A stretch of 55,961 bases of DNA from Bacillota bacterium (GTDB lineage Bacteria; Bacillota; UBA994). Shown here in pieces: positions 38,990 through 52,386 of the stretch. The notes below the pieces were generated by a model. That model had not been told where the DNA came from and searched no databases. It was given only the letters and a program-made list of their open reading frames with translations. The stretch is from assembly GCA_009773495.1 (NCBI GenBank), contig WSXW01000011.1, forward strand, positions 1 to 55,961, read 5' to 3'. A program made the translations under genes and the position numbers. Position 1 is the first letter of the stretch. Each line of letters begins with the position of its first letter.

Positions 38990-39010
38990 GATTTTTGCTT
39001 TTTGATTTTT
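38990..39010. repeat. TTTTTGCTTTTTGATTT motif, copy 1
   Basis: GATTTTTGCTTTTTGATTTT also occurs at 50862 and 52223, always in gaps and always in this orientation. Here it lies just beyond the fliC terminator. Confidence 0.7.
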
Positions 39011-39108: not shown

Positions 39109-40476
39109 TTAACGGAGTAGCTGGAGAACGCCTTGGGGCGCTTGGTTAGCTTGGGCCAACATAGCTGTAGCTGCCTGAGTTAGGATGTTGTTCTTTGTAA
39201 ACTCCATCATTTCCTTCGCCATATCCACGTCTCTGATTCGAGATTCAGACGCTTGCATGTTTTCAGCAGATGTATCTAAGTTCTTGATTGAATGTTCCAG
39301 CCTATTTTGGAATGCACCAAGTTTAGAGCGCTCAGCTGATACTTGTTCAATTGCATCATTTATGGTTTTTATTGCTGTTCCAGCTTTCCCAGAATCCATA
39401 ACGCTGACACTATCAATTTTATTTGTAGTGTTTCCCAGAGAAGTAGTTGACATGGCGTTAATGTCTATGAGCATTGTCTGACCCGTGTTTGCGCCAATGT
39501 GAATACTTGAGCCCGCTTTCACTACATTTATTATAGAATTTGAAGTAGCTACCCCTGCGGCTGTAAATTCGGCCGTGCCAACAACAACCCTTCGACCTTC
39601 ACCTGTCACCGTTACACTTGTTAAGTCTGTATTATGCCGTAGGGTCATTACGGCGTTCACGCCGGCGGTTGTAGATGATACTGTACCTATTAATGCTGCA
39701 TTAGCACCGGTTACGACTGCACTCTTGCCTGCTCCAAATTCAGTTGCGGTAAAAACAAATCCTCCACCGTCTATATTGGTTGCAGTGAAACCAGTTTCAG
39801 CTGATCTGGCGTTAAATGCTGCTAGTACATCGGCCCTGGATGTCCCAGTGAAATCAATTTTTATGCCATTAAGAGATATATCTTTACCAACAAAGTTTGC
39901 CGTTACTATTGCCGCTTCATTTAAATATGTTGTTGCGCCAGTTGAAACTTGCCTAACTGCGGCTGTGTCAACTGTTGCTGTATACGCACCTAGCTTTAGT
40001 CCGCTTGCTGAAACAACACTAACGTTAGCTGGTAGAGAACTTGTGGCTACAGCTCCTAAACCACCGTTTAGTAATCTCTGCGTGTTAAATTCGGTTGTAT
40101 TAGATATTCTGTCTATTTCGGAACTTAACTGATTAATTTCCTTTTGGATCTCCCCGCGATCAATGCCTACGTTCGTATCGTTAGATGCTTGAACTGCCAA
40201 TTCTCTCATTCTCTGAAGAATTGCTTGAGTTTCACTTAGCGCACCTTCAGCCGTCTGAACTAGAGATATGCCATCTTGAGCATTTCTAGACGCTTGATTT
40301 AAGCCCCTGATTTGGCCTCTCATCTTTTCAGACATTGCAAGGCCAGCTGCGTCATCTCCTGCTCGGTTAATTCTAAAGCCTGAAGATAATTTCTCCATGG
40401 ATTTAGCACCGTTAGTGTTGCCAATCCCCAACTGCCTATGGGTGTTCATGGCCATTATATTGTTATTAATACGCAT
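39109..40476 (-). CDS. fliC: flagellin FliC (Hag)
   Basis: The filament subunit (455 residues). Conserved D0/D1 ends: MRINNNIMAMNTHRQL with SGFRINRAGDDAAGLAMSEKMRGQ at the N-terminus, and IRDVDMAKEMMEFTKNNIL with ANQAPQGVLQLLR at the C-terminus. The centre (about 165-365) adds surface domains including a flagellin hook IN-type motif (GKDISLNGIKIDF). ATG at 40476 is set by AAGGAGGA seven bases upstream; the 24 extra codons to 40548 lie in the leader. It has its own sigma-D promoter and terminator, giving high monocistronic expression. This is the only flagellin gene in the window. Confidence 0.97.
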   Translation of the reverse strand: MRINNNIMAMNTHRQLGIGNTNGAKSMEKLSSGFRINRAGDDAAGLAMSEKMRGQIRGLNQASRNAQDGISLVQTAEGALSETQAILQRMRELAVQASNDTNVGIDRGEIQKEINQLSSEIDRISNTTEFNTQRLLNGGLGAVATSSLPANVSVVSASGLKLGAYTATVDTAAVRQVSTGATTYLNEAAIVTANFVGKDISLNGIKIDFTGTSRADVLAAFNARSAETGFTATNIDGGGFVFTATEFGAGKSAVVTGANAALIGTVSSTTAGVNAVMTLRHNTDLTSVTVTGEGRRVVVGTAEFTAAGVATSNSIINVVKAGSSIHIGANTGQTMLIDINAMSTTSLGNTTNKIDSVSVMDSGKAGTAIKTINDAIEQVSAERSKLGAFQNRLEHSIKNLDTSAENMQASESRIRDVDMAKEMMEFTKNNILTQAATAMLAQANQAPQGVLQLLR

Positions 40477-40480
40477 TGAT

Positions 40481-40516
40481 CTTCCTCCTTGAATTTTCGT
40501 TTCGGCTTCCTTGCCG
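40481..40516 (-). promoter_or_regulatory. CsrA-binding sites in the fliC leader
   Basis: In the predicted fliC leader RNA, CGGC-AAGGAA-GCCG (40503-40516) forms a 4-bp stem with GGA in a six-base loop, the classic CsrA target. A second GGA site (CAAGGAGGA, within 40481-40492) is the ribosome site itself. This mirrors the two-site control of hag in B. subtilis, and csrA and fliW lie about 3 kb upstream. Confidence 0.7.
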
Positions 40517-40553
40517 CTGAGAAGCCTGTCGCGCGCCAAGCTACTCACTTTTG

Positions 40554-40849: not shown

Positions 40850-40879
40850 GTGGCCGTGATCCCGCAGGATTACGGCCAC
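40850..40879. repeat. 13-bp hairpin followed by a T-run on the plus strand
   Basis: GTGGCCGTGATCC-cgca-GGATTACGGCCAC with one G-T pair. On the plus strand it is followed by GGGGGGTTTTT. No plus-strand gene precedes it, so it is more likely a repeat relic than a working terminator. Confidence 0.5.
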
Positions 40880-41060
40880 TGGGGGGTTTTTCTGTGTCAT
40901 TCATTTAATTCTGTGCCCTCTGTGGGCAGTAACCATACCGCGAGGGCCGAGGGCACGGCATGCCATGCCCCTACACCATGGTTGGTAGCCCTTCCGGTTA
41001 AGTCCGGTCGGGTCGGAAAGTCCGTGTGCCGTCCCCTTCAGTCAGTTGCCCTCTGCCGCC

Positions 41061-41147
41061 CTTATCAGCGTTAATCATATAGATCTGCGAAAATCTGCGT
41101 TTGGGTACCCAGGTTCTTTCAGAGTGAATCAGAAATATCGGTATATT
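41061..41147. repeat. direct repeat flanking the HepT/MntA pair, left copy
   Basis: TTATCAGCGTTAATCATA, ATCTGCG words and TCTTTCAGAGTGAATCAG match the right copy at 41943-42031 along about 87 bases with scattered differences. It extends into the last codons and stop of hepT. Confidence 0.8.
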
Positions 41148-41521
41148 GCTTTGAGCCAATGGTTGAGTAAAATCGCGTGCTCACGGATTCGAGAATATAT
41201 TTCTTCCGCTAACGCATCGTTATAGGTATGTACAGCCAGATTTCGATCGTCTGTCATCCGCAATACCGTCACGGTTTGCTCCTCACTGAGCAGACCAATC
41301 TCCCGACATGACCTAATTACAGATTTGGGGCTCGCTAAGTCTAATCCTTCATGAACCCACAAGTACTCCTTTACGGCCTTCCACGCTGCCTCAAAAGCAA
41401 GCTCAAAGCGCTTAATCGTGGCATCCCGCTCAAGGGCTGAAGGAATCTCAATTGTAAGAGCTTCGTCTAAATTAGTTAAGGCCCGTTTCGCTGACTGCAG
41501 TCGCTCTGTTAACCTATCCAT
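41129..41521 (-). CDS. HEPN-domain protein, HepT-type toxin (HI0074 family)
   Basis: In known HepT-MntA pairs this is a HEPN ribonuclease toxin silenced by AMPylation of a tyrosine. The 130-residue helical protein contains RFELAFEAAWKAVKEYL. It also carries RNLAVHTY, an exact R-x4-H-x-Y motif with the active residues and the target tyrosine. ATG follows GGAGGG by six bases and overlaps mntA by 13 bases. The 3' end lies in a direct repeat, so the C-terminus may have been reshaped by insertion. Older annotations call this family nucleotidyltransferase substrate-binding protein. Confidence 0.88.
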   Translation of the reverse strand: MDRLTERLQSAKRALTNLDEALTIEIPSALERDATIKRFELAFEAAWKAVKEYLWVHEGLDLASPKSVIRSCREIGLLSEEQTVTVLRMTDDRNLAVHTYNDALAEEIYSRIREHAILLNHWLKAIYRYF

Positions 41522-41805
41522 AAAATACCCTCCATACGGACCTTGTCATTAATGACTTCCCCTGCAGATGAGAGATCTACTACATCGACCTTATAAGGTA
41601 CGTTAGACTCAGCAACACGAGTTCTCAAGTCTGATAGAACTGATGAAGCTAGCGGCCCGTTATACTCAATGGCGATGTCAATATCAGAAGAACGGCGCTC
41701 TTGTCGCCGTGCCCAAGACCCAAATAGGTATACCTTGGCCCCTGTCCCCGCAACCGCAGTGGTAACAATCTCCCTGAGTTCATTTAACACTCTATCCCGG
41801 TCCAT
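41509..41805 (-). CDS. MNT-domain nucleotidyltransferase, MntA-type antitoxin
   Basis: A 98-residue minimal nucleotidyltransferase. The motif GSWARRQERRSSDIDIAIE shows GS and DxD spaced as in the pol-beta fold, with a third Asp expected in YKVDVVD. In the HepT-MntA system it transfers AMP to HepT. ATG at 41805 is supported by AGGGGGTG; an ATG at 41826 has no site. It is co-transcribed with hepT from its own extended -10 promoter within the flagellar locus. Confidence 0.88.
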   Translation of the reverse strand: MDRDRVLNELREIVTTAVAGTGAKVYLFGSWARRQERRSSDIDIAIEYNGPLASSVLSDLRTRVAESNVPYKVDVVDLSSAGEVINDKVRMEGILWIG

Positions 41806-41837
41806 AAGCCACCCCCTAGAAAACATTTCTTAGTAGG

Positions 41838-41846
41838 ATTATACCA
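41838..41846 (-). promoter_or_regulatory. extended -10 promoter of mntA-hepT
   Basis: Minus strand TGGTATAAT fits TGnTATAAT, 32 bases before the mntA ATG. No -35 match. It gives the pair transcription independent of the sigma-D operons. Confidence 0.55.
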
Positions 41847-41942
41847 CTATAAACTAAGGGTATTAGACAGCTAGTGAAAGCGGCACCATGCTGACGGCTT
41901 TAGAGTTGTCGCCAGCCTCGCAGGGATTAAGCCCATATCTAC

Positions 41943-42031
41943 CCCTATCAGGGTTAATCATAGAGTTCTGCGAGAATCTGCGTTTGCGTTCCCAGTCTTT
42001 CAGAGTAAATCAGGAGGATCAGGTATATCAG
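41943..42031. repeat. direct repeat flanking the HepT/MntA pair, right copy
   Basis: CTATCAGGGTTAATCATA, GAATCTGCGTTTG and TCTTTCAGAGTAAATCAG align with 41061-41147. It lies upstream of mntA and downstream of the mcp terminator. Confidence 0.8.
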
Positions 42032-42062
42032 GCTCACGTCTTCTCACGCTCCTCCTCTACGT

Positions 42063-42094: not shown

Positions 42095-43618
42095 CTAGAA
42101 GGTCGGAATGCCCGCCCCGCCCATCATATCAAGTTCGATATCCTCGTGCTTGGCAACCTTGACATGCTGGCCGACCTTGACCTCTAAAGTCATATCCACA
42201 CCAAGTACGCCTACAATATCTCTACCATTCTTAATTGGCGCGGCAATAGTCACACAGGGCATGCTGTTAGTAGAGGATATGTACACATCTGAAACATAGG
42301 CCTTGCCGCTCATAGCACTACGGAAGTAAGTCCTAAAGGCTATGCTCTTCATGCTCACAGCCTCTGTAACGGCTAACAGCTCACCCTTGGCATCTGCCGT
42401 AAACGCTAAGGCGTATTGCGGCACCAAGGCACCAATGGCTGCTTTATGCTTACCCGCATCCATGCCCATAATCTCCGGAGTTGTCGCCCGCTTCTCTAAG
42501 TCAGCCCGGGCTTCGTTAATTTGCTCCCGCATGGCCTCTGCCCCGGTCTGTAGGCCGCCAAAGTCAGCTAGGGCTGTGTAAACCTGCTCTACTTGGCGAG
42601 AGACATCTTCCGCACTGCTAGAAACATCTGTGATGGCGCGTCCTTGTTCCTGCACTGCATGGTTGGCATTTTCGAGGTTGCCACTCGATTCAGCTACAAA
42701 TTCGCTCACCGACGTAGCTACCCTAGCGATGCTATCGGCCATAGCCTTGAGGCCACTGCGTGATGCTTCGATGCTAGCCAGCTCGTGCTGAGCAACGCGC
42801 CGGTTCTCATCGATCTCTGTACCTACGGTAGCAATATCGTTTTTAATAGCGTCAAGAATTTTGCGCGTGTTCTCGGTGGCTGCGGTGGCGCGATCTGCTA
42901 ATTGGCGTATTTCGCCAGCCAGAACTGCAAAACCCTTGCCCTTCTCCCCAGCTAGAGCTGCTTCGATGCTGGCGTTAATGGAGAGAATGTTAATCTGGTC
43001 GGCAATTTCATCTATGGTCTTTGTAACACTGTCTACCTGCTTGGTTTGGTCAGCCAAGCGATGAAACAGTGTCCCGAGTCCTGTCGCGAACGCGGCGAGT
43101 TGCTGTATACCTTCGATACGCTTTTGTAGCTCGCTTTCGTTACGAGCTACATTCTGCTGCGCCACGCTGACAACTGCTCGAACTGTGTCTGTCTGGCCCG
43201 ACAAACCGGAAAACACGCTGTTAAGATTAGCAGTCATTATCTGAGCCGCAGCCTCAACCTGCTGCATACTAGCAGCCAAGCTTTCCGCCGAGGAGGATGT
43301 CTGTTCACTACACATCTGTAGCTCGCGAATCATCACACGTATGTTACTAAAAAGCGTAGCGAGCTCCTGTGATAGCTCTTTCCCTAGGTCATCTAAACCC
43401 TCATCCGAAAACGAGGCAAAGATCAGATTTTCTGAACCGAGCTGTTTTAACTCTTTAAGAATACGCATCATTCCGCCATAAAACAGCTTGCGCCTGAGGG
43501 CATAAGTAGTACCGCCGAATCCGACTGCGCTAATTAGCGCCACCACAAGTGACTGCGTGACAAAATAAACAAAGAGCGGTACACAACTAGCCGCTAGCAA
43601 CACAAACAAGGAAAGCAC
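42095..43618 (-). CDS. methyl-accepting chemotaxis protein with C-terminal Cache-like domain
   Basis: A chemoreceptor of 507 residues. Two hydrophobic stretches fill residues 2-40 with almost no loop, so there is no outside sensor domain. A long coiled-coil signalling domain follows (about 95-375), with the hairpin tip EIADQINILSINASIEAAL and KGFAVLAGEIRQLADRA (about 204-243). After it comes a PDC/Cache-like region (about 400-480) with FRTYFRSAMSGKAYVSDVY and VTIAAPI, then DIVGVLGVDM. This would be cytoplasmic. There is no CheR-binding pentapeptide. The GTG start overlaps the csrA stop by one base. It is the only receptor in the window. Confidence 0.9.
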   Translation of the reverse strand: MLSLFVLLAASCVPLFVYFVTQSLVVALISAVGFGGTTYALRRKLFYGGMMRILKELKQLGSENLIFASFSDEGLDDLGKELSQELATLFSNIRVMIRELQMCSEQTSSSAESLAASMQQVEAAAQIMTANLNSVFSGLSGQTDTVRAVVSVAQQNVARNESELQKRIEGIQQLAAFATGLGTLFHRLADQTKQVDSVTKTIDEIADQINILSINASIEAALAGEKGKGFAVLAGEIRQLADRATAATENTRKILDAIKNDIATVGTEIDENRRVAQHELASIEASRSGLKAMADSIARVATSVSEFVAESSGNLENANHAVQEQGRAITDVSSSAEDVSRQVEQVYTALADFGGLQTGAEAMREQINEARADLEKRATTPEIMGMDAGKHKAAIGALVPQYALAFTADAKGELLAVTEAVSMKSIAFRTYFRSAMSGKAYVSDVYISSTNSMPCVTIAAPIKNGRDIVGVLGVDMTLEVKVGQHVKVAKHEDIELDMMGGAGIPTF

Positions 43619-50861: not shown

Positions 50862-50880
50862 GATTTTTGCTTTTTGATTT
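50862..50880. repeat. TTTTTGCTTTTTGATTT motif, copy 2
   Basis: GATTTTTGCTTTTTGATTT, same orientation as copies at 38990 and 52223. Followed by CGACTAGCGACTAGCGACT near 50894. Confidence 0.7.
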
Positions 50881-50928: not shown

Positions 50929-50957
50929 AAAAACGCAGGATTCACTCCTGCGTTTTT
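50929..50957 (-). terminator. terminator of the M28 peptidase gene, overlapping its stop
   Basis: Minus strand AAAAACGCAGGA/TCCTGCGTTTTT, 12-bp stem with a 5-base loop and U-tract. The TGA stop of the peptidase (50942-50944) is in the loop. Confidence 0.88.
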
Positions 50958-52066
50958 TGCTGTCCTAAGTCAGCCACTAGTTCCGCCACGAACTCTACCG
51001 CTGTTTCTACAGTCTTTAGTTCTACGTTTGCAAAAGTATCCGTCGGCCAGTGCCAATTAGGTAATAGCCCTTCATCATTCATGCTGAGAAAGCTGACCGC
51101 CTTATACCCACGCACGAGAGCTGGCATGGCGTCGGTCGAGAGCAAATTGTAAACACCTTGCTTAACACCAAGCTCTGGTCTACGCTTAGCTACACGCTGA
51201 CAGGCTTCAATGAGCTCAGTAGGAGCCTTGAAAACTGGGAACATCCCTTCGCCGGACATATAGTGTAGGCTACCCGCTCCTATGTTGTCTAGATTAACGA
51301 ACACAGACTCTTTGTGACGACTACCGTACTCCTCTAGGAAGCGAATCATGCCGTAAGTCCCGGCTTCCTCACATCCCGTTAACAGTACACTGAGTTGTAC
51401 ACCGTCCGGCAATGTTGCCTTAAATCTCTCTGCTACAGCCAGCACAGCACCTACACCCGAGGCGTTATCATTTGCACCGTTAGTATAACGATTCCAGATT
51501 TCACGGTGTATGAGGGTAATAGAGGCAAAGGCTAGATACAAACAGGGTAAAAGTGCAACAAAACGCCACGCGCCCCCCCACAAGCTAGCAACAAACAACA
51601 GGATGGGTGCGGCGCATAACGAAGCAACCATCAAGAGAAAAGAGGTCCGGAAACCCTTGACCATGGCTGGGCTAAAATTAATCCCAGCTTTACTGCTATC
51701 AAGGTGCGCCACCAAGACTACCTGGCGACCCTGCCCCTTAGGATGGGTGGCGTAGATATTTTGGCTCGCCCCGGTGGGAAAGACTCTACTCAAAACTTGA
51801 TATGTATTTAGATCCATAAAAAAGAGGATGGAACCAAGTAACGATAACAACGGCCAATCTAATGCCCAAGCAACAAGCGGCCACAAATAGAAGGTTATGT
51901 ACAGCCATGAAAATGTAGTGAGCGCTTTAAATCGCTGTTCTATAACCTCGTACCCCATGCCTTTGAGTAAGTCTTTACAATAGTTGGCGGCACGTTTCTC
52001 TTCCGAAGTAGCAGAGCCACGGGCACCAATTTCTTCACTTAAATGGTATACAACACGCTTCAGCAT
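50942..52066 (-). CDS. membrane-anchored M28 family zinc aminopeptidase
   Basis: A 374-residue metallopeptidase. All zinc ligands and the base are present: His121 and Asp123 (VAHLDSS), Asp200 (NGANDNASG), Glu233/Glu234 (GCEEAG), Asp260 (LDNIGAG) and His339 (NWHWPTDT). Two membrane segments (about 54-87) precede the first ligand. Two more (about 142-187) lie between Asp123 and Asp200, inside the catalytic domain. ATG at 52066 follows GGAGGTG by six bases; the upstream ATG at 52081 lies at that ribosome site. Substrate unknown. It stands alone with its own terminator. Confidence 0.88.
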   Translation of the reverse strand: MLKRVVYHLSEEIGARGSATSEEKRAANYCKDLLKGMGYEVIEQRFKALTTFSWLYITFYLWPLVAWALDWPLLSLLGSILFFMDLNTYQVLSRVFPTGASQNIYATHPKGQGRQVVLVAHLDSSKAGINFSPAMVKGFRTSFLLMVASLCAAPILLFVASLWGGAWRFVALLPCLYLAFASITLIHREIWNRYTNGANDNASGVGAVLAVAERFKATLPDGVQLSVLLTGCEEAGTYGMIRFLEEYGSRHKESVFVNLDNIGAGSLHYMSGEGMFPVFKAPTELIEACQRVAKRRPELGVKQGVYNLLSTDAMPALVRGYKAVSFLSMNDEGLLPNWHWPTDTFANVELKTVETAVEFVAELVADLGQQKTQE

Positions 52067-52386
52067 TCGCTTCACCTCCACAATGGAGATTCACCATAGC
52101 GACTTAATATTCCTGCAAGCAGCCTAGAGCCCTTAACATATTCTATTGTTGGTTAAAAGCGTACTACCTACGTCATTGATTTAGAACCTGTCAGTGCTAG
52201 GGCGCTACACCCATTCCCATAGGATTTTTGCTTTTTGATTTTATTTGTCTCACTGCCCCCTAGTGTAGTTTTTTGTGATTAGTGATTTTTCCCAGTTCAT
52301 GTTTCATGCTTCTTGTTTCATGTGTCCTGCGCTGCCCCTATTGCCCCACCTGCCAGGTAGCCACACGGACAACCGTGCATAGAGTC
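52067..52386. other. gap upstream of the M28 peptidase gene
   Basis: No gene is seen. It holds a TTTTTGC motif (52223-52242) and the words TTGTGATTAGTGATTTTT and CATGTTTCATGCTTC with CTTGTTTCATG, which resemble the repeat patches of the other gaps. Confidence 0.5.
52223..52242. repeat. TTTTTGCTTTTTGATTT motif, copy 3
   Basis: GATTTTTGCTTTTTGATTTT, identical over its core to copies at 38990 and 50862. Confidence 0.7.

Follow-up and report, generated by a model that had tools for sequence, protein, structure and literature searches.

A predicted HEPN/MNT toxin–antitoxin operon in the csrA–fliC gap of a Bacillota genome, flanked by diverged copies of a dispersed repeat

The locus described here lies in a 55,961-nt stretch of DNA from a Bacillota bacterium (contig WSXW01000011.1), which we refer to as "the window". 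Two small genes interrupt its flagellar locus between fliC (39109–40548, minus strand; Flagellin_N/C), the downstream flank of the pair, and mcp (42095–43618, minus strand; MCPsignal), a position first reported in a sequence-only reading of this DNA and confirmed here. Both genes are on the minus strand. The first, mntA (41509–41805), encodes a predicted minimal nucleotidyltransferase antitoxin of 98 aa, and its longest ORF reaches 41826. The second, hepT (41129–41521), encodes a HEPN-domain protein of 130 aa, predicted by homology to be an RNase-type toxin. No integrase or transposase gene adjoins the pair. Between fliC and hepT there is also a 30-bp near-perfect palindrome (40850–40879). A run of T follows it on the plus strand but not on the minus strand, even though all neighboring genes are encoded on the latter.

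The two proteins belong to well-described families. HepT matches PF08780 (NTase_sub_bind; 1.6e-25) and the HI0074 subfamily model TIGR01987 (72.4 bits), and MntA, a Pol-beta/MNT nucleotidyltransferase, matches PF18765 (2.8e-13) and PF01909 (7.8e-8), in all cases above the Pfam or model cutoff. The closest solved relative of HepT is TTHA0636 (PDB 1wwp; 4e-30), and those of MntA are MntA (PDB 5yep) and HI0073 (PDB 1no5). Yao et al. define Class I HEPN/MNT modules as PF01934 or PF08780 proteins paired with PF01909 proteins and carrying RX4HXY and GSX10DXD motifs (Yao et al. 2020, PMC7641770). The pair has each of these features: a PF08780 HEPN protein adjoins an NTP_transf_2-type MNT protein; RX4HXY is intact in HepT, as RNLAVHTY; and GSX10DXD is intact in MntA, as GSWARRQERRSSDID, with the third Asp within KVDVVD. 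The NCBI equivalog models, by contrast, score below their cutoffs of 60 bits (HepT, 30.5 bits against NF047751; MntA, 53.2 bits against NF047752), which counts against our overall reading. Since these cutoffs are missed and that of TIGR01987 is passed, we file the pair under the HI0073/HI0074 branch rather than with the equivalogs. Family, motifs, and gene arrangement thus bear out the earlier identification as HepT/MntA, and the pair is predicted to be an intact chromosomal Class I HEPN/MNT toxin–antitoxin (TA) operon (HepT/MntA-type; "type VII" in NCBI usage) of that branch.

By homology, HepT would be an RNase that halts growth when free, and MntA would neutralize it by moving AMP onto the tyrosine of RX4HXY. 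Poly-AMPylation of the motif tyrosine has been demonstrated in other Class I members (Yao et al. 2020, PMC7641770). A phylum-level search found relatives in 75 of 348 genomes. Such a patchy spread is typical of TA modules. A search of viral contigs found no HepT; HepT matches at <60% identity occur in three phage records, which are unannotated, and in 92 plasmid records. The pair is an ordinary one, of a well-known kind; what is new here is one more HI0073/HI0074-type operon.

The arrangement of the genes is compact. mntA and hepT overlap by 13 nt with both frames intact, and the hepT start codon lies within mntA behind a GGAGGG sequence, an arrangement that implies coupled translation. The sequence upstream of mntA reads, on the minus strand, TGGTATAAT...CTAGGGGGTGGCTTATG. 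Translation of mntA probably starts at 41805 instead of 41826, because both the Shine-Dalgarno sequence GGGGGTGG and a candidate extended −10 element, TGGTATAAT (41838–41846, minus strand), fit only the shorter form. The −10 candidate was read directly from the sequence; it is absent from the list of a consensus promoter scanner because its −35 region is poor. The operon likely has its own promoter. With a GC content of 0.48 for the pair and 0.49 for the window, composition gives no sign of recent import.

The pair is flanked by two repeats in direct orientation, both on the plus strand. The sequence-only reading had placed these repeats, of ~87 bases each, at 41061–41147 and 41943–42031; they are real and extend slightly further, to 41059–41149 (left copy) and 41942–42034 (right copy). 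The copies are identical at 77 of 89 aligned bases (86.5%), far from the ~60% below which the same reading would have given up its proposal. Local alignment of the two scores 105, whereas 300 shuffles of the interval that preserved dinucleotide composition reached no more than 31, and self-BLAST gives E = 1.4e-20. The right copy lies upstream of the putative TA promoter and retains the tail ATCAGGTATATCAGGC. The left copy contains the hepT stop codon (41129–41131), as was originally noted, along with the last six codons (125–130), without breaking the gene. In alignments, similarity to other HepT proteins tapers off around residue 124–126, and the tails vary across the family; the toxin is therefore not truncated.

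The repeat is not confined to this locus. A BLAST search with the left copy found a third full-length copy on another contig, in the gap between fhs-like (formate-tetrahydrofolate-ligase-like) and dinB-like genes, names that were read from the ORFs. Searching with a sequence model of the three full copies turned up weaker relatives at C67, C44, C61, and C25. Beyond the full copies, shorter or degenerate relatives lie at roughly eight places in all. The tail pattern ATCAGGTATATCAGGC matches nine sites genome-wide with ≤2 mismatches, versus none for a reversed control, although at least one of the hits with two mismatches looks coding; with ≤3 mismatches, the counts are 38 and 11. Similarly, an ATCAG pattern spaced 9 nt occurs 25 times versus three. 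Inverted arms (GCCTGATATACCTGAT ... ATCAGGTATATCAGGC) can be seen by eye at several of the sites related to the repeat. At one place on contig C44 (G000:C44:54177-54388; L066, L070), inverted arms of this family surround a short degraded frame that by eye resembles a GxxExxY-type protein.

Outside this genome, the tail pattern is no commoner than background in the seven other genomes of the family, and BLAST found no copy of the repeat in 60 relatives; the element is therefore lineage-specific. Its exact core was not found in GTDB contigs. Nor did the repeat model (R1) match at 25 loci of hepT relatives in other organisms, so the repeat and the TA genes do not travel together. An Rfam scan of the region gave no match, and a literature lookup with the sequence word AATCTGCG returned only noise. 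A hairpin or other folded element was considered and rejected, as folding with DNA parameters was no better than for shuffled sequences. What flanks the pair is an intergenic element that is dispersed through the genome and specific to this lineage, in two copies that have diverged. The sequence-only reading had held that a common intergenic element, present in dozens of copies unrelated to TA genes, would speak against its proposal. That description fits in part: the element is dispersed and unrelated to TA genes, but only three copies are full length.

These observations bear on the suggestion that the pair forms a cassette that arrived, or could leave, by recombination between the repeats. 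In such a scheme, RecA would have recombined a resident repeat with an incoming molecule carrying the TA genes plus a repeat, yielding repeat-TA-repeat, and exit would follow the same path. The direct orientation of the repeats is what this scheme would predict, and hepT homology ends about where the repeat starts. In addition, the flanking copies resemble each other (86.5%) more closely than the left one resembles the third (~76% by BLAST), a difference that would also fit a local duplication tied to insertion and so counts against our overall reading. On the other side, the repeat is not specific to a cassette, given the third full copy near dinB and the degenerate relatives. The longest identical run between the flanking copies is only 12 bp. 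A run of this length is far short of what efficient RecA recombination usually requires, and excision between the copies today is therefore unlikely. Past mobility through the repeats, as originally suggested, is thus possible but unproven, and departure at the present day is improbable. No csrA–fliC gap with a single repeat copy, the empty site expected under the cassette scheme, was found among the family genomes compared, all of them from other genera. Furthermore, an unrelated 26-bp dispersed repeat brackets an ordinary gene in the same window, that of an M28 peptidase (50942–52081). The genome contains five exact copies of the 19-bp core of this second repeat, GATTTTTGCTTTTTGATTT. Three lie in the window (38990–39008, 50862–50880, and 52223–52241), and two of these bracket the peptidase gene. 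Taken together, we regard repeat-mediated arrival of a cassette as unlikely.

Bracketing by direct repeats was also assessed at other HEPN/MNT pairs, with 148 ordinary genes or gene pairs from the same loci as controls. With a threshold of about E ≤ 1e-7 (the weakest case, L152, stands at 1.07e-7), 5 of 55 HEPN/MNT pairs were bracketed, versus 3 of 148 controls; the 55 include the window pair, which prompted the comparison, and its removal leaves 4 of 54 (p = 0.08). The nature of the bracketing repeat varies among the cases: a tRNA-Glu fragment (L031), a repeat that recurs elsewhere in the same locus (L048), and a promoter-like region (L127). The first of these (L031, 3589–4438), from a Melainabacteria MAG, has its HEPN/MNT pair flanked on one side by a tRNA-Glu gene and on the other by 33 bp of the same tRNA repeated in direct orientation, an arrangement that resembles tRNA-targeted insertion. 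The trend is suggestive, a lead only. A far-reaching version of the idea would have HEPN/MNT pairs commonly captured between dispersed repeats or tRNA fragments of the host, giving integrase-free mobility to a two-gene TA module, with the window locus as one diverged example in which the repeat even supplied the stop codon of the toxin; we consider this quite improbable. Should the trend persist in a larger sample, it would suggest a route by which small TA modules move without a recombinase of their own. The window locus itself offers a caution, in that bracketing by repeats is not, taken by itself, proof of mobility.

Comparison with related genomes informs the history of the locus. Makarova et al. 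described operons that had acquired an MNT-HEPN module by insertion, whereas the site is empty in sister strains (Makarova 2009, PMC2701414). In three genomes of the same family (G002, G004, and G007), csrA directly adjoins fliC, which indicates that the gap has gained both mcp and the TA pair here; the csrA–fliC gaps of sister genomes in the family lack the TA genes, mcp, and the repeat alike. One of these genomes, G002, from another genus, has a related pair (HepT, 53%; MntA, 47%) in the same conserved flagellar/chemotaxis block but in a different slot, ~10 kb from the fliC gap. There, the pair (L143, 10082–11082) is flanked by the orthologue of the M28 peptidase gene and by a run of mcp, cheV-like, cheA, cheB, and flgM genes (che names read from the ORFs). 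Its hepT stop codon lies three bases before an 18-copy tandem array of the 14-bp unit GCAAGAAACAGGAA. The family ancestor could already have carried the pair within this supercluster, with a later change of slot. The HepT tree unites the G002 and window copies with support of 97/90, in line with such a relocation. Support weakens to 89.6/84 for concatenated HepT and MntA, however, where a sister relationship with G238, from another family, is not rejected (AU 0.20), and the other six family genomes have no close HepT, leaving room for two independent insertions. Relocation of an ancestral pair is therefore conceivable, with the odds somewhat against it. The data fit both old linkage followed by relocation and repeated insertion into this region, and because the G002 pair occupies a different slot of the same cluster, either is more probable than the arrival of a cassette in a single, simple event.

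The location among flagellar genes could also reflect function, i.e., co-option of the pair as a motility regulator of the locus. Indeed, a Shewanella HEPN/MNT pair, SO_3165-3166, represses swimming (PMC4621449). That pair is distant from the one described here, though, and the effect of its deletion is slight (PMC4621449); among the closest relatives of the window pair, flagellar genes are nearby only in G002 and, loosely, G112. A regulatory role is thus very improbable. The sequence-only reading had raised the further idea that such a pair could stabilize the locus or respond to phage.

Overall, the evidence makes it quite probable that the locus is a Class I HEPN/MNT TA operon in the csrA–fliC gap, flanked by copies of a dispersed repeat that are too diverged for efficient excision. 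In this lineage, the operon would have been placed in a gap that also gained mcp, and the repeats may either have caused the insertion, through old recombination between copies, or have merely accumulated around the TA genes. The locus adds one clean, intact HI0073/HI0074-type operon within a flagellar locus.

Each component has counterparts among known systems. Like the short intergenic repeats dispersed in other bacteria (REP/MITE-like), the flanking element is ~90 bp long and intergenic, with several degenerate copies and, in some cases, inverted arms; unlike them, it has no evident link to a transposase, no stable fold, and no Rfam match. The pair shares RX4HXY, GSX10DXD, and the order mntA-hepT with the Shewanella oneidensis type VII system SO_3166/SO_3165 but falls under both NCBI equivalog cutoffs and in the HI0074 subfamily. 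With HI0073/HI0074 and the Thermus TTHA0636-type pairs (TIGR01987, PF08780), it shares family, size, and motifs; it differs from them in being flanked by a dispersed repeat of its host, and in that this repeat encodes the tail of hepT.
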